Below the pieces are notes generated by a model, which did not search any database, was not told the DNA's origin, and worked only from the letters and a program-made list of their open reading frames with translations. The translations under genes were made by a program, and so were the position numbers. This document shows, one piece after another, positions 16,906-22,082 of a stretch of 64,000 nucleotides of DNA; position 1 is the first letter of the stretch, and each line of letters opens with the position of its first letter. Source of the DNA: Thermoanaerobacter ethanolicus JW 200 (GTDB lineage: Bacteria; Bacillota; Thermoanaerobacteria; Thermoanaerobacterales; Thermoanaerobacteraceae); the NCBI RefSeq assembly GCF_003722315.1, contig NZ_CP033580.1, positions 124,001 to 188,000 of the forward strand. The letters run 5' to 3'.

Positions 16906-19593
16906 TTACAGCAAACTTCCAAATCTTTTTACAAATCTCGTTTTAACGTATTGCGCCAAAGTCAAGTATGCAAGGAGGGTAGCTGCTAAGAATAAGAAGT
17001 ATATTCCTGGCAATGGCATCATTCCAAGGTCTTTTCCAAAGGAGGTAAATGGAACAATCGTTCCTACTGTAACAGCTGTAGATGTAAAAAGTAATAGCGG
17101 CCATGAAGCAATGCTTTGTATAAAAGGAATCTTCTCGGTTCTAAGCATATGAACTACCATTGTTTGTGTCCATAAGCTTTCTACAAACCAGCCTGTTTGG
17201 AAAAGTGAAACAAATTGGAGTTTAAGTGCTTCAGGCAACAAGAAGTAAGAGCCACCTATAACCAACGGACCAATTACAAAAAACATCAAAGCATAAGTGG
17301 TTATATCAAAAATTGAACTAGTAGGTCCAAACCATACCATGAAATTGCCTATATTTGCAGCATCCCATTTTCTTGGCTTTTGTATATACTCTTTATCCAT
17401 TGTATCCCAAGGCACTGATGTCATTGACAAATCATAAGTTAAATTAAGGAAAAGAAGTTGCAATGGCTGCATTGGCAAAAAAGGCAAAAATGCACTTGCT
17501 ACTAAAACTGAAAATACATTACCAAAATTAGAACTCGATGTAATTGCAATGTATTTCATAATATTTCCAAAAATTCTGCGTCCTTCTACAACTCCCTCTT
17601 CTAATACCGTAAGACTTTTTTCTAAAAGTATTATATCTGCTGATTCTTTTGCAATATCTACTGCAGAGTCAACAGAAATTCCAACATCGGCTTCTCTTAG
17701 TGCAGACGCATCATTGATACCGTCCCCCATATATCCAACAATGTGGCCTTTGCTTTGTAAAGCCTTTATTATTCTCGATTTTTGCATAGGAGAAAGTTTT
17801 GCAAAAATTGTCGTCTTTTCTGCTACTTCTGCTAATTCTTCATCTGTCATATTCTCTATTTCATTTCCTAATAGAATATTCTCTACAGCAATCCCCACTT
17901 CTTTACAGATTTTCTTTGTCACTATTTCATTGTCACCAGTAAGAATTTTTACATCTACTCCATGTTCTTTTAAGGCTTTTATCGCATAAGGTGCAGATTC
18001 TTTTGGCGGGTCTAGAAAACCTATATAACCCATGAGAACCATCTTACTTTCATCCGCCACACTGAAAACTCCCTCTGGTGGAACATCATTTTTTTGAGCT
18101 ACGGCAAGCACCCTCATTCCGTCTTCATTTAATTTTCTTACCATTTCTCTTACTTCTTGGCGTATTTCATCTGTCAAAGGAACAACTTCACCTTTGTACT
18201 CAGCGTATTCGCAGATGGAAAGCACTTCTTCAACGGCGCCTTTCGTTACAAGCTGCCTTTTCCCACCTTCGCTCTCTAAAACTACAGACATTCTTCGCCT
18301 TACAAAATCAAAGGGTATCTCATCAACTTTTTTGTATATTTTATCTAAACCATTAAAGCCCTTTTCAACTCCATACTCTAAAATAGCTACATCCATCAAG
18401 TTCCTTAGACCTGTTTGATAATAACTGTTAAGATATGCATGTCTTAAAACTCTGTCATCTTCATTTCCATGTATATCAAGATGTTTTTCTACAACTATTT
18501 TGTTTAATGTCAAAGTGCCAGTCTTATCAGTACAAAGTATATCCATTGCTCCGAAATTTTGAATAGCATCTAATCTCTTGACAATTGTCTTATGTTTTGC
18601 CATTGTCACAGCACCTTTAGCAAGGTTTGTAGTGACTATCATTGGAAGCATTTCGGGAGTAAGTCCAACAGCTACAGCCAAGGCAAAAAGCAATGCATCC
18701 AACCAATTACCCTTTGTAAGGCCATTTATCACAAAAACAATTGGAAACATAACTGCCATAAACTTGATAAGCACTTTGCTGACATTGTTAATACCCTTTT
18801 CAAAACTTGTCATTGCCCTATGCCCTACAAGGGACTTTGCCATTGAACCAAAATAAGTACGGTCACCTGTTGAAAGAACTACAGCAATAGCAGAGCCACT
18901 TACTACATTGGTACCCATAAAGCATATATTTTCTAAGTCTGAGAGGTTTAAATCCTTAGCTTTCCTTTTTTCTTCTTTTAAATCCGGATATTTCTCAACT
19001 GGTTCAGATTCTCCTGACAAGGTCGCTTGGTTTATGAATAAGTCCTTGGAAGTAATAACCCTAACATCTGCAGGTACCATATCTCCTGCTGCCAAATGTA
19101 TTATATCACCAGGTACTATTTCTTCCATTTTTATTTCTCTCTCACCTGTATCTTTGCGAATAACTGCAGCAGTCGTGTGAACAAGGGCTTTCAATTTTTC
19201 CGCTTCTATATTGGAGCGGTACTCTTGAACAAAGCGAAGCAGTCCACTAACCGTTACCATTATAGAGATAATAATTATGGTGCTCCAATCTCTGTCTTGA
19301 GGTGCAGTAAAAAGTACATCAGTTATATATGACACAATTGCCAAAAATACCAATATACCTATGAAGGGATTAATAAAAGCTTTAATCAATTGAATATACC
19401 AAGGAGCTGGTTTTTCATGGGCTACTTCATTTAAACCATACATTTCAAGTCTATCTTCTGCTTCCTCAGAAGTCAAACCTTCTCTATCTGTGCCTAATTG
19501 TGCCAAAACTTCATCTACATCTTTTTTCGCAAACTCAATTAATTGGGTAAGTATCGTATCTGTGAATCCATTTTTCTTTGCGATTTTGATCAT
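16906..19593 (-). CDS. mgtA: Magnesium-importing P-type ATPase
   Basis: P3B-type ATPase of about 895 residues that imports Mg2+ at the expense of ATP. The phosphorylation motif is DKTGTLT, with TLSGES in the actuator domain, KILTGDNE and MGDGINDASALREADVG in the P domain, and about ten membrane segments. The frame extends to GTG 19614, but GGAGGT then lies inside it; the ATG at 19593 has that site at 8-base spacing. The long leader carries an M-box Mg2+ riboswitch and further attenuator structures, so expression should rise only when Mg2+ is scarce. Confidence 0.95.
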   Translation of the reverse strand: MIKIAKKNGFTDTILTQLIEFAKKDVDEVLAQLGTDREGLTSEEAEDRLEMYGLNEVAHEKPAPWYIQLIKAFINPFIGILVFLAIVSYITDVLFTAPQDRDWSTIIIISIMVTVSGLLRFVQEYRSNIEAEKLKALVHTTAAVIRKDTGEREIKMEEIVPGDIIHLAAGDMVPADVRVITSKDLFINQATLSGESEPVEKYPDLKEEKRKAKDLNLSDLENICFMGTNVVSGSAIAVVLSTGDRTYFGSMAKSLVGHRAMTSFEKGINNVSKVLIKFMAVMFPIVFVINGLTKGNWLDALLFALAVAVGLTPEMLPMIVTTNLAKGAVTMAKHKTIVKRLDAIQNFGAMDILCTDKTGTLTLNKIVVEKHLDIHGNEDDRVLRHAYLNSYYQTGLRNLMDVAILEYGVEKGFNGLDKIYKKVDEIPFDFVRRRMSVVLESEGGKRQLVTKGAVEEVLSICEYAEYKGEVVPLTDEIRQEVREMVRKLNEDGMRVLAVAQKNDVPPEGVFSVADESKMVLMGYIGFLDPPKESAPYAIKALKEHGVDVKILTGDNEIVTKKICKEVGIAVENILLGNEIENMTDEELAEVAEKTTIFAKLSPMQKSRIIKALQSKGHIVGYMGDGINDASALREADVGISVDSAVDIAKESADIILLEKSLTVLEEGVVEGRRIFGNIMKYIAITSSSNFGNVFSVLVASAFLPFLPMQPLQLLFLNLTYDLSMTSVPWDTMDKEYIQKPRKWDAANIGNFMVWFGPTSSIFDITTYALMFFVIGPLVIGGSYFLLPEALKLQFVSLFQTGWFVESLWTQTMVVHMLRTEKIPFIQSIASWPLLLFTSTAVTVGTIVPFTSFGKDLGMMPLPGIYFLFLAATLLAYLTLAQYVKTRFVKRFGSLL

Positions 19594-19596
19594 TTC

Positions 19597-19732
19597 CATA
19601 CACCTCCAAAACACAATAATAGACTAAGGCTGCTGAGTCTTTTGCAACCTTACAGTTACAGTATTTGTTTTTTTGTGAAAAACTTTCGCACTTAGACGAT
19701 GGAATTAAAAGGAATTGTTTTGGAGGTATATG
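19597..19732 (-). promoter_or_regulatory. Long-range hairpin over the mgtA ribosome-binding site
   Basis: The mgtA ribosome site region (19597-19612, minus strand GTTTTGGAGGTGTATG) is complementary over 16 bases, with one G-U pair, to CATATACCTCCAAAAC at 19732-19717, about 105 bases upstream in the transcript. Pairing would hide GGAGGT. Whether it forms, and what opens it, is inference. Confidence 0.55.
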
Positions 19733-19767
19733 TAATAGGACATCAAAAGAAGGGATAAATAGGCATT

Positions 19768-19899
19768 TTAAGAAATAGCAAAATTTATTGAAAAGGCCAC
19801 GTGTGAGAAGAATGGACGTGGCCTCAAACTATGCCCATCCTTCTTCAATGTCATATTACATATACCTTTATAGCTTTTACTACTACCTCCACCGTCCAT
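19768..19899 (-). CDS. Small leader ORF between the M-box terminator and mgtA
   Basis: A 43-codon ORF, beginning MDGGGSSKSYKGICNM, with an excellent ribosome site GGAGGTG six bases before the ATG at 19899. It matches no family I know. Its start region (19893-19908) and a later segment (19803-19818) are a 16-bp perfect inverted repeat, and its last third spans a second terminator-like hairpin, so it looks like a leader peptide whose translation decides attenuation of mgtA, as mgtL does in enterics by another mechanism. Peptide expression is not proven. Confidence 0.5.
   Translation of the reverse strand: MDGGGSSKSYKGICNMTLKKDGHSLRPRPFFSHVAFSINFAIS
19794..19824 (-). terminator. Second attenuator hairpin in the mgtA leader
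   Basis: On the minus strand AGGCCACGT (19824-19816) pairs with ACGTGGCCT (19802-19794), 13-base loop, followed by TTT. The loop and 5' arm are also complementary (19803-19818) to the start region of the leader ORF (19893-19908), so a mutually exclusive antiterminator is possible. Confidence 0.6.
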
Positions 19900-19927
19900 T
19901 CTTCTCACCTCCGTTTTTTCGCAAATT

Positions 19928-19960
19928 AAAAAACCTCTCAACGAATGAAAGAGGTTTTTT
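19928..19960 (-). terminator. M-box riboswitch terminator
   Basis: AAAAAACCTC (19960-19951 on the minus strand)/GAGGTTTTTT (19937-19928), ending in a T-run. Its loop contains TTCGTTGAG, which is complementary to CTCAACGAA at the 3' end of the M-box P1 helix, giving the expected antiterminator for low Mg2+. Confidence 0.85.
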
Positions 19961-19968
19961 AACATTTC

Positions 19969-20120
19969 AATTCGTTGAGCTTTGGCACTATACAGCTTTG
20001 GAGCATCCTCCAGCTGCATTAAGTAAAACCTTAATTCGGTAATACTTGTTGACCCGTTAGCATCTCTCGATGTTTCCGGGCAGCAGCGTATATCTGTATA
20101 GGAGCCTCACCTAACGATTG
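19969..20120 (-). ncRNA. M-box (ykoK leader) Mg2+ riboswitch
   Basis: The minus strand matches the M-box consensus: CGTTAGGTGAGGCTCCTATA near the 5' end, then ACGCTGCTGCCCGGAAA, ATGCTAACGGGTCAACAAG, GGATGCTCCAAAGCTGTATA and AGTGCCAAAGCTCAACG closing P1. M-box RNAs fold when Mg2+ is plentiful and terminate transcription of Mg2+ transporters. It is followed directly by the terminator at 19928-19960 and then mgtA. Confidence 0.93.
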
Positions 20121-20141
20121 TATTAACTTGTGCCCTTCTAC

Positions 20142-20170
20142 ATTATATTCTTCTATTTACAATCTGTCAA
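20142..20170 (-). promoter_or_regulatory. Consensus promoter of the M-box/mgtA transcript
   Basis: On the minus strand TTGACA (20170-20165), 17 bases, TATAAT (20147-20142): a perfect SigA promoter. The start site would be near 20135, about 15 bases before the M-box, giving a leader of about 540 nt. Confidence 0.85.
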
Positions 20171-20188
20171 TCTATTTTGAAAAATTTT

Positions 20189-20731
20189 TTACAAAAACAA
20201 CTTTGTAGCTATAAAATGGGTTAGATAAGAAAAAGTAATACCTATCGTTGAGCCCATTAATACATCTGAAGGATAATGCAGTCCAATGTATATCCTTGAA
20301 ATCCCTACAAGTACTGCCAGCGAAATAAAGAACAGTGCAAGGCTTGGAAAAAACATTGAAAAAGTCATAGCAAGTGAAAAACTGGCAGTAGCGTGACCTG
20401 AAGGAAAAGAATAATCTTTTAAAAGATGTTTAAAAGTATTTGTATTAGCTAATACCATATAAGGCCTTGGTCTTGTATATTTTCTTTTTAAGAGCTGAAC
20501 AAACAAATGGCTGCTTACAAGAGCAGTTAAAGCTTCTAAAGCAGAGGCTTTCACATTGTTTTTTCCGAAAAATATTAAAGATAAGCAAGAAAATATTGTA
20601 AAAAAAGGACCTCCTATATGAGTTATTTTAGGCATTATTTTGTCCAATATATTACATTTTATTCTTTTGTTTATATAGAAAAAAATGTTTTTGTCTTTGT
20701 CAAGAAGCACTCTTTTTATTTGCATCAGCAA
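20189..20731 (-). CDS. PAP2-family phosphatase
   Basis: A 180-residue membrane phosphatase with all three PAP2 signatures: KRKYTRPRP, FPSGHATASF and SRIYIGLHYPSDVLMG, supplying the catalytic His pair and Arg. Members dephosphorylate lipid phosphates; small Firmicutes homologues such as BcrC act on undecaprenyl pyrophosphate. Several hydrophobic helices are visible. The upstream stretch contains what looks like a decayed glycolipid glycosyltransferase, so it may once have been part of a lipid gene pair. Substrate is unknown. Confidence 0.85.
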   Translation of the reverse strand: MLMQIKRVLLDKDKNIFFYINKRIKCNILDKIMPKITHIGGPFFTIFSCLSLIFFGKNNVKASALEALTALVSSHLFVQLLKRKYTRPRPYMVLANTNTFKHLLKDYSFPSGHATASFSLAMTFSMFFPSLALFFISLAVLVGISRIYIGLHYPSDVLMGSTIGITFSYLTHFIATKLFL

Positions 20732-21156: not shown

Positions 21157-21795
21157 TTAAGCAATTGCTTTCTTTTTAATTTCCTCGATAGCATTTCTAA
21201 CTTGAGGAATTAGTGAAACTGCAAAACATATTGCCACTTCTACACCTATTATGCTTCCATTAACTAAAAGTGAATAAACTATAGGACTCATTCCTTTTGG
21301 CGCATAGCTTGCAAAAAAGAATACTCCGGATAAAAAGTGAGAGAAAAATCGTCCAAATCCGCCGACTAAAATTCCCAAACTCAGGTTTTTTCTAAAAAAG
21401 CCAGCAAGTCCTAATGCACCAAAAGCCAAAGGATAGTCGAGAAGTACTTGCACCCATTGGACTATAAAGGGGTCTTGAATAAGTTGCAAAAGTCCATATG
21501 CCATGCCAACAATCACACCAGGACCTGGTCCATAATAATACGCAAATATAAAAAGTGGAAGCATGCTGGCAGGCGTTATGGAACCACCCTGTGGCCAATG
21601 GTAAAACCTTATATATGACAGCACAAAAGAAATAGCGATTGAAAGTGCTCCGTAGACAAGCATCTTTGTGTCAAATTTGACACTTCTTCGCATCAGATAT
21701 AAAAGAAAAGCTGCCAATAAAATTGCCAATATAACTGATAAGGTCACTGGTTTTATTTTGGCAAAATCAGAAAATATACTTATAATGTAGGACAT
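21157..21795 (-). CDS. thiT: ECF transporter S component for thiamine
   Basis: Substrate-binding membrane subunit of an energy-coupling-factor thiamine transporter. The 212-residue protein has about six transmembrane helices; ISFVLSYIRFYHWPQGGSIT and MLPLFIFAYYYGPGPGVIVG are hallmark ThiT segments, including the residues that bind the thiazole and pyrimidine rings. I chose the ATG at 21795, nine bases after GGAGGTG; the upstream ATG at 21813 would place that site within the gene. A TPP riboswitch precedes it. The shared ECF module genes are not in the window. Confidence 0.93.
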   Translation of the reverse strand: MSYIISIFSDFAKIKPVTLSVILAILLAAFLLYLMRRSVKFDTKMLVYGALSIAISFVLSYIRFYHWPQGGSITPASMLPLFIFAYYYGPGPGVIVGMAYGLLQLIQDPFIVQWVQVLLDYPLAFGALGLAGFFRKNLSLGILVGGFGRFFSHFLSGVFFFASYAPKGMSPIVYSLLVNGSIIGVEVAICFAVSLIPQVRNAIEEIKKKAIA

Positions 21796-21839
21796 AATAA
21801 AAAACACCTCCATGATATTTAGAGGCTATGTTCGCTGAA

Positions 21840-21866
21840 AAAAATACCGCGAAATGCGGTATTTTT
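21840..21866 (-). terminator. TPP riboswitch terminator
   Basis: AAAAATACCGC (21866-21856 on the minus strand)/GCGGTATTTTT (21850-21840) with a 5-base loop, ending in a T-run. It lies directly after the TPP aptamer and before thiT. Confidence 0.88.
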
Positions 21867-21867
21867 G

Positions 21868-21956
21868 AGCCGCATTCCCTACGGAGGCATTACCCTCATC
21901 AGGTTCCAAGGGTTTGGCATCAATGCCATCTCAGCCATTAAGGCTCCCCCAGCGGA
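21868..21956 (-). ncRNA. TPP (THI-box) riboswitch
   Basis: On the minus strand the conserved elements appear in order: GGGGGAGCC, GGCTGAGATGG, ACCCTTGGAACCTGAT, GGTAATGCC and GTAGGGAATG. Thiamine pyrophosphate binding should favour the adjacent terminator and switch off thiT. Confidence 0.95.
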
Positions 21957-22082
21957 CATAACCACCTATTTTGTTTTCACCTTTAATTTATCATTTTCTG
22001 TAGTCTGTGTCAAGAATAATTATCAAATGCGGATGGCCAAGCTTTGTAGGTTGCTGACGTTTTGCACACACATCAAATGGTA

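Follow-up and report, generated by a model that had tools for sequence, protein, structure and literature searches.

Why should a short open reading frame (ORF) lie between a magnesium riboswitch and the magnesium transporter gene behind it? The question is raised by the leader of mgtA in Thermoanaerobacter ethanolicus JW 200, on the reverse strand of the 64,000-nucleotide stretch analyzed here (positions 124,001 to 188,000 of contig NZ_CP033580.1), which is called the window below and to which all positions refer. To our knowledge, this riboswitch, the M-box, has mostly been treated as a stand-alone sensor. In the window, a promoter, an M-box with an intrinsic terminator of its own, a leader ORF with a strong Shine-Dalgarno (SD) sequence, and mgtA follow one another (Table 1), and the leader RNA has the potential to form alternative pairings that link the ORF to the start of mgtA. 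Among related leaders these elements and their pairing potential recur, the first residues of the encoded peptide are constrained, and the ORF is tied to Mg2+ transporter genes. We propose, with a probability that we put at roughly 0.6, that an M-box is combined here with a leader peptide of the MgtL/MgtQ kind, and that abortion of translation in low Mg2+ would switch the downstream RNA; the Mg2+ dependence and the direction of the switch are what we infer by analogy with those systems.

A sequence-only reading of this leader had pointed to a consensus promoter, an M-box with its terminator, a 43-codon ORF with a strong ribosome site, and a perfect 16-bp inverted repeat reaching from the start of the ORF into a second hairpin. 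The promoter, the M-box with its terminator, the ORF, and the repeat were all borne out (Table 1). The M-box scores above the curated threshold of its covariance model and its terminator platform precedes a Mg2+ transporter gene, in line with membership of RF00380. The leader occurs at a single place in the genome, as judged by a whole-genome search, and a repeated element is therefore unsupported as the origin of its inverted repeats.

Acidic leader peptides behind the M-box

We read 159 M-box leaders from this genome and its relatives, five further M-box matches being left out; in a sample of the phylum, the M-box was present in 133 of 398 genomes. Upstream ORFs (uORFs) were called on SD strength and start codon alone and had to lie at least 20 nt after the M-box. 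A strong-SD uORF was found in 120 of the 159 leaders, and 90 of these 120 encode at least two aspartate, glutamate, or proline residues (D/E/P) at positions 2 to 6 (MDSGP, MDPDP, MDADP, MEESP, etc.). The proportion was similar once repeats of the first eight residues had been removed (71 of 91), and the N termini of the main genes reached the same level in just 17 of 117 cases. An acidic residue (D or E) occupies position 2 in 94 of the 120 uORFs, and Pro occupies position 5 in 61. In the window leader's own class, 23 of 36 strong uORFs have at least two D/E/P and all 36 have D or E at residue 2; the corresponding figures for the other classes are 67 and 58 of 84.

Shuffling did not reproduce this pattern. 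The 153 leaders that could be shuffled contain 117 uORFs, 89 of them with at least two D/E/P, compared with averages of 24.1 and 3.8 in 20 rounds of shuffling that preserved dinucleotides. Thirty leaders of thiamine pyrophosphate (TPP) riboswitches from the same and related genomes yielded four uORFs, none with two D/E/P. When D/E at residue 2 was accepted as an alternative to two D/E/P, the first choice was an acidic uORF in 106 of the 159 leaders; by genus the figure was 57 of 86 and by family 38 of 54. According to Pfam, the 77 distinct main genes behind acidic uORFs include 43 with MgtE_N, 21 with CorA, 5 with E1-E2 ATPase, and 2 with Nramp. The terminator of the M-box itself was seen in 94 of 105 leaders by a lenient scan.

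The composition of the peptides changes along their length. In the 91 distinct uORFs, residues 2 to 6 are 33% D/E, 16% P, 31% G/S/A/T, 5% K/R/H, and 13% bulky, and residues 13 to 20 are 8% D/E, 2% P, 21% G/S/A/T, 21% K/R/H, and 34% bulky. Many uORFs carry acidic and Pro residues followed by basic ones (e.g., MDPDPGSKYKKYIIIKRKR). Synonymous codons are used: MDPDP is encoded in five different ways in five leaders, and the Ser codon of MDSGP is TCT in 22 cases, AGT in one, and AGC in one. The acidic, Pro-containing, or small N terminus is the most conserved part of the uORFs across the set, which suggests sensing of Mg2+ by the ribosome rather than sensing of translation in general.

The same picture emerged from named mgtA homologs. 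Among the best 80 of 582, an M-box, as judged by an nhmmer model, lies upstream of mgtA in 20. Every one of these 20 leaders has D or E at residue 2 or 3 of its best uORF, and 19 reach the SD threshold of -9; among them are Caldanaerobacter, Clostridium, Niameybacter, Tissierella, Paenibacillus, and a Fusobacteriales genome. Of the other 60 homologs, seven have a first-choice uORF that combines a strong SD with D or E at one of these two residues. The four of these that most resemble the remaining set, all ahead of P-type ATPases, are MEEGSSK in Clostridium gallinarum, MDDDGGS in two Treponema genomes, and MDGDSGG in a Clostridia genome.

A search for the pattern SD-ATG-MDx[DEG]P over the 398 genomes, made without regard to M-boxes, gave 57 matches, of which only the tie to Mg2+ transporters counts as evidence. 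Eleven lie in known M-box leaders and four ahead of other Mg2+ transporters, and the others that were read are mostly long genes or chance ORFs. The four are MDSGPSN, MDGDPSK, and MDGDPGS before corA and MDAEPGG before mgtE. The three CorA proteins fall under the TIGR00383 cutoff but far exceed that of Pfam (191 to 204 bits versus 27), and the MgtE passes TIGR00400. At the eight uORF loci ahead of mgtA, corA, or mgtE, cmscan found neither an M-box nor any other family at an E value of ≤0.1. Because similar uORFs precede Mg2+ transporters without an M-box, the peptide seems to be tied to Mg2+ transport and not to the M-box alone.

Several observations stand beside these counts. The two Treponema leaders, L244 and L269, are mgtA leaders outside Bacillota (uORFs MDDDGGSL and MDDDGGSS), and a third Treponema, L234, has no such uORF ahead of mgtA. 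Four genomes, G010 (L015/L160), G011 (L002/L112), G019 (L004/L083), and G028 (L016/L144), have two M-box leaders each, with differing peptides that are GGS-like ahead of mgtA and of the SGP or PDG type ahead of mgtE. One of them, the Caldicellulosiruptor-like genome G028, carries, besides its own mgtE leader, a Thermoanaerobacter-type mgtA leader (L016, G028:C1:697701-700868) nearly identical to that of the window, either by transfer or by contamination. In two Paenibacillus leaders (L208 and L212), two M-boxes on opposite strands face apart within about 1 kb. In a further group (L067, L073, L074, L081, L082, L088, L093, L097, L101, and L115), leaders without an acidic uORF have the M-box followed, after a very short gap, by a conserved membrane-like protein (e.g., MNRVTNLALTM...AFAYFAY).

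Potential alternative pairings of the leader RNA

The 331-nt leader of the window folds at -95.8 kcal/mol (z = -5.12), and none of 100 shuffles was as low. The alternative structures are A:C, B:D, D:E (segments as in Table 1), and a hairpin at 19824-19794. In A:C, the start region of the leader ORF pairs with a segment farther down the same ORF, and in 200 shuffles of the downstream RNA no equally good pairing with it arose (P = 0.005). Since D cannot pair with B and E at once, B is an anti-anti-SD lying inside the leader ORF. This switch of B:D against D:E on mgtA, together with the peptide itself, is what the sequence-only reading had missed.

In an alignment of ten related leaders, 97.5% of the alignment cells stay paired in A:C, 94.7% in D:E, and 98.9% and 88.0% in the two helices of B:D. 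The B:D structure with its inner hairpins contains six pairs with two-sided changes, compared with 1.3 in shuffles.

Pairing of the uORF start region extends to the wider set. It outperforms shuffles in pairing with its downstream RNA in 63 of 103 leaders at P ≤ 0.05 (42 at P ≤ 0.01). Among the 63 significant leaders, the partner starts inside the uORF in 62 and lies entirely inside it in 44. This A:C-type pairing is significant against shuffles in 58 of 85 non-overlapping and 5 of 18 overlapping uORFs. When the downstream regions of other leaders served as the control (86 distinct leaders, 79 with enough comparators), P ≤ 0.05 was reached in 24 of 62 non-overlapping and 2 of 17 overlapping uORFs. 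When the SD is excluded, codons 1 to 7 exceed chance pairing in 13 of 79 leaders. The claim, made from the window alone, that the M-box is followed by a further layer linked to translation is supported, and A:C recurs. In 19 of 105 leaders the uORF stops at or beyond the main start, and in 53 it stops at most 50 nt before it, so that a ribosome finishing the uORF would often sit on or near the main ribosome-binding site (RBS).

The hairpin at 19824-19794 had been taken for a second attenuator. It forms in the fold and C overlaps it, but it ends in UUUUC, a short U-tract, and a strict terminator scan confined to loops of ≤8 listed none within 19300-20500. Among MDGGG-type leaders, 10 of 11 have a terminator-like hairpin at C, which G003 and G019 lack. 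A second terminator-like hairpin was found by the lenient scan in just 31 of 105 leaders, which speaks against a second intrinsic terminator as the main, conserved output of the layer.

Table 1. Features of the mgtA leader in the window, in the order of transcription
Feature	Position	Strand	Basis
Promoter TTGACA-17-TATAAT	20142..20170	-	12/12 matches to the -35/-10 consensus, 17-nt spacer
M-box (ykoK) magnesium riboswitch aptamer, RF00380	19958..20125	-	151.2 bits versus gathering score 44
Intrinsic terminator of the M-box expression platform	19926..19962	-	arms 19962-19950 / 19938-19926, 13 bp perfect, T run in 3' arm
Shine-Dalgarno of the leader ORF, GGAGGTG	19906..19912	-	duplex energy -15.4
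Segment A: SD/start of leader ORF, pairs with C	19893..19908	-	inverted repeat, 16/16
Leader ORF, 43 codons, MDGGGSSKSYKGICNMTLKKDGHSLRPRPFFSHVAFSINFAIS	19768..19899	-	ATG 19899, stop 19768; related uORFs in relatives
Segment B: in leader ORF (codons 12-23), pairs with D	19831..19866	-	fold and inverted repeat
Segment C: complement of A, within leader ORF and within hairpin 19824-19794	19803..19818	-	inverted repeat with A
Terminator-like hairpin, short U-tract, competes with A:C	19794..19824	-	10 bp in fold
Segment D: partner of B; anti-SD of mgtA in its 3' part	19725..19765	-	fold and inverted repeat
Anti-SD arm pairing with E	19716..19735	-	90% ungapped repeat; P 0.005 versus shuffles
Segment E: SD/start region of mgtA	19594..19613	-	ungapped 90% repeat with 19735-19716
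mgtA, magnesium-translocating P-type ATPase, 895 aa	16906..19593	-	TIGR01524, 1237.8 bits versus cutoff 610.75

Elsewhere in the window, a TPP riboswitch (81.3 bits) lies at 21858-21960 on the reverse strand, ahead of a hydrophobic ORF at 21157-21813. TPP and M-box matches lie within about 2 kb of one another in several Thermoanaerobacter genomes, and the neighborhood is thus conserved. In the same genome, no short acidic uORF was found in the 330 nt upstream of corA, and no MgtE was found at an E value of ≤0.001.

A proposed mechanism and its alternatives

In the mechanism that we propose, the M-box would first decide whether transcription passes its terminator, and the leader peptide would then be translated from the transcripts that got past it. 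Its first codons (MDGGGSS in the window) may render the elongating ribosome unstable or slow at low Mg2+, as EPDP does in MgtL. In low Mg2+ the ribosome would pause or drop off at about codons 2 to 7, B would be left free to pair with D, and E, the ribosome-binding site of mgtA, would be released. After drop-off, A:C could close and block new loading of the leader ORF, thereby acting as a latch that would also break the hairpin at 19824-19794; only a ribosome reaching the 3' half of the uORF would keep it open. In high Mg2+, ribosomes would traverse the 43 codons and cover B and C, D would pair with E, and mgtA would be little translated; the hairpin might then terminate transcription as well.

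Several results weigh against this proposal. The window peptide has D2 as its sole acidic residue and no Pro among its first seven residues, and is therefore a weak match to the known destabilizing motif. The mgtA-type uORFs generally lean to M[DE]xGSS and not to MDxDP; richer relatives exist (MDDGG, MEPESS, MDPDGS), and M[DE]xGSS might be a variant that depends on small residues, if these can destabilize the ribosome. The D:E pairing is significant in just 26 of 104 leaders, of which 21 belong to the window leader's own class (mgtA leaders of the Thermoanaerobacteraceae type and mgtE leaders of the Caldicellulosiruptor-like type, MDSGPV). Folds in which a ribosome blocks codon 5 differ in the sign of the effect, the main SD opening in 28 and closing in 15 of 81 leaders relative to folds without a ribosome. 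Relative to a block at the uORF stop, it is more open in 14 of the 81 leaders and less open in 41; this comparison is biased, since the stretch blocked at the stop often touches the main SD. In the window leader itself (G000), the block at codon 5 lowers the opening of the main SD from 0.60 to 0.40, which is the wrong direction. Neither A:C nor D:E contains two-sided changes in the ten aligned leaders; slid controls give three to five two-sided pairs and only four of the six observed pairs sit in B:D itself, which makes the covariation of B:D weak evidence. The 57 matches of the pattern search do not rise above background (about 80 in a reversed control, counted by hand). Finally, 53 of the 159 leaders have no acidic uORF as first choice. 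Seven of these hold a frame starting with MD at another strong-SD start; one family (f13) wholly lacks acidic uORFs, and another (f17) does so except for a single leader, whose 9-codon frame is probably a chance occurrence.

The sequence-only reading had understood the second layer as a general translation checkpoint. An initiating ribosome would cover A and free C, allowing the hairpin at 19824-19794 to terminate transcription, an idle start site would pair with C and antiterminate, and the sequence of the peptide would be irrelevant. The perfect and recurrent A:C pairing, the overlap of C with the hairpin, and the hairpins over C in most MDGGG-type leaders all fit such a checkpoint. Nevertheless we consider it unlikely, given that residues 2 to 6 are constrained as a peptide while their codons change synonymously, that a second terminator-like hairpin of any kind is confined to fewer than a third of the leaders, with none at C in G003 and G019, and that uORFs reaching or passing the main start, which show less A:C by both controls, yet retain an acidic start. 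What remains of that reading is a translation-linked layer, and the constraint on the N terminus suggests that it is the response of the ribosome to Mg2+ that is sensed. A kindred objection is that RNA pairing, or the initiation context (ATGGA following GGAGGTG), has produced the acidic and Pro codons as a side effect. ATGGAC does sit in A, and the pairing of codons 1 to 7 without the SD is above chance in some leaders. The synonymous and Ser-codon switches, Pro5 and the scarcity of basic residues extending beyond the A:C helix, the overlapping leaders that mostly lack A:C, and the low number of acidic uORFs in dinucleotide-preserving shuffles together make such an origin highly improbable.

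The peptide could also sense an elongation signal other than Mg2+, such as charged tRNA-Pro or tRNA-Gly, the supply of EF-P or ABC-F proteins, or polyamines. Salmonella mgtP is described as responding to charged tRNA-Pro (PMC8092293), and Pro5 is common among the uORFs. Many mgtA-type uORFs, however, have no Pro among their first residues, and the uORFs are linked to Mg2+ transporters whether or not an M-box is present and across four transporter families; we therefore regard a signal of this kind as rather improbable. That the uORF encodes a small protein acting on the transporter or the membrane, as proposed for Rv1805A, seems very unlikely to us. The Mycobacterium tuberculosis M-box uORF2 is indeed conserved and has been proposed to be a regulatory peptide (PMC12810186). 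In the present set, similarity across families is limited to the first five to seven residues; the uORFs differ widely in length and also in their C termini, and some extend into the main gene in a different frame.

Relation to known systems and significance

In control of the MgtL/MgtQ type, translation aborts at low Mg2+, which is counteracted by bL31. The leaders studied here share with this type an SD-led short ORF in a Mg2+ transporter leader, at least two acidic or Pro residues at early positions across the set, and alternative pairings linking the ORF to the downstream gene, seen as pairing potential and its recurrence.

MgtL, from the mgtA leader of Escherichia coli and Salmonella, is a short ORF with acidic and Pro residues at positions 2 to 5 followed by basic ones, and in E. 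coli it begins with MEPDP. Ribosomes drop off at EPDP when Mg2+ is low (PMC11282234), and the leader RNA adopts alternative folds (PMC11552253). Unlike the leader in the window, which has an M-box with its own intrinsic terminator in front, the enterobacterial leader uses Rho (PMC11552253), and the output here seems to be masking of the SD or overlap with the uORF. The M-box search gave no match in E. coli, used as a control. MgtQ, from the mgtC-mgtB intergenic region of Salmonella, has Asp2 and Glu5, and the RBS of mgtB is released through alternative pairings, 1:2 plus 3:4 versus 2:3 (PMC8092293). Its start-region pairing 1:2, anti-SD pairing 3:4, and releasing pairing 2:3 resemble A:C, D:E, and B:D, respectively. 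It differs in being intergenic, eight codons long, and without a riboswitch ahead, and in that its own region 2 frees the RBS, a role that a separate segment within the ORF, B, would play here (PMC8092293). CorL of E. coli and Salmonella is likewise a uORF, before corA, whose translation lowers corA expression; it is Rho-dependent and has fewer acidic and Pro residues, and the available text makes no mention of an M-box (PMC11552253).

Precedents for an M-box followed by a uORF are mycobacterial. In M. tuberculosis, uORF2 (Rv1805A) behind an M-box encodes a peptide with a conserved N terminus and a conserved Pro, which its authors deem specific to mycobacteria (PMC12810186), and an M-box with a uORF has been described for mgtE of Mycobacterium abscessus (PMC4974804). 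As here, the uORF lies between the M-box and the target genes, and anti-SD and anti-anti-SD structures are involved; the mycobacterial M-box differs in acting translationally and through Rho (PMC12810186, PMC4974804). The statement that no M-box leader with a second layer was known agrees with our literature searches for Bacillota but does not extend to mycobacteria. In Clostridia, the M-box before Nramp-related Mg2+ transporters is, as here, a transcriptional off-switch (PMC4072509); the main text of this Clostridium acetobutylicum study, as available, contains neither "uORF" nor "leader peptide," and its "small ORF" is an MgtE-like fragment. We recognized no report of acidic leader peptides behind M-boxes in Bacillota in the open-license PMC literature, outside which subscription papers mostly lie. 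What may be new here is the proposed coupling of an M-box to control of the MgtL/MgtQ kind, in a different phylum and with a wiring of its own.

These leaders may represent a widespread, unnamed class of ribosome-based Mg2+ sensors outside Proteobacteria, a proposal to which we would give even odds. Leader peptides with acidic, Pro, or small N termini would precede mgtE, corA, mgtA, and nramp, usually behind an M-box and without it in some lineages (a Clostridium and two Treponema). The A:C latch would turn elongation stability into a bistable read-out, and the differing peptides of the four genomes with both an mgtA and an mgtE leader could set different Mg2+ thresholds.

The ribosome is a main consumer of Mg2+. 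If the mechanism holds for about two thirds of the M-box leaders of the phylum (106 of 159), Mg2+ control would join ion binding by RNA to a functional read-out by the ribosome, and destabilization of the ribosome would have emerged, or persisted, as a sensor well outside enterobacteria. There would then be dozens of natural variants of the peptide from which to define the early residues that destabilize the ribosome, and a layer may have escaped M-box reporter constructs whose insert stops at the terminator. In that case, bacteria may check magnesium twice, by RNA and then by the ribosome.

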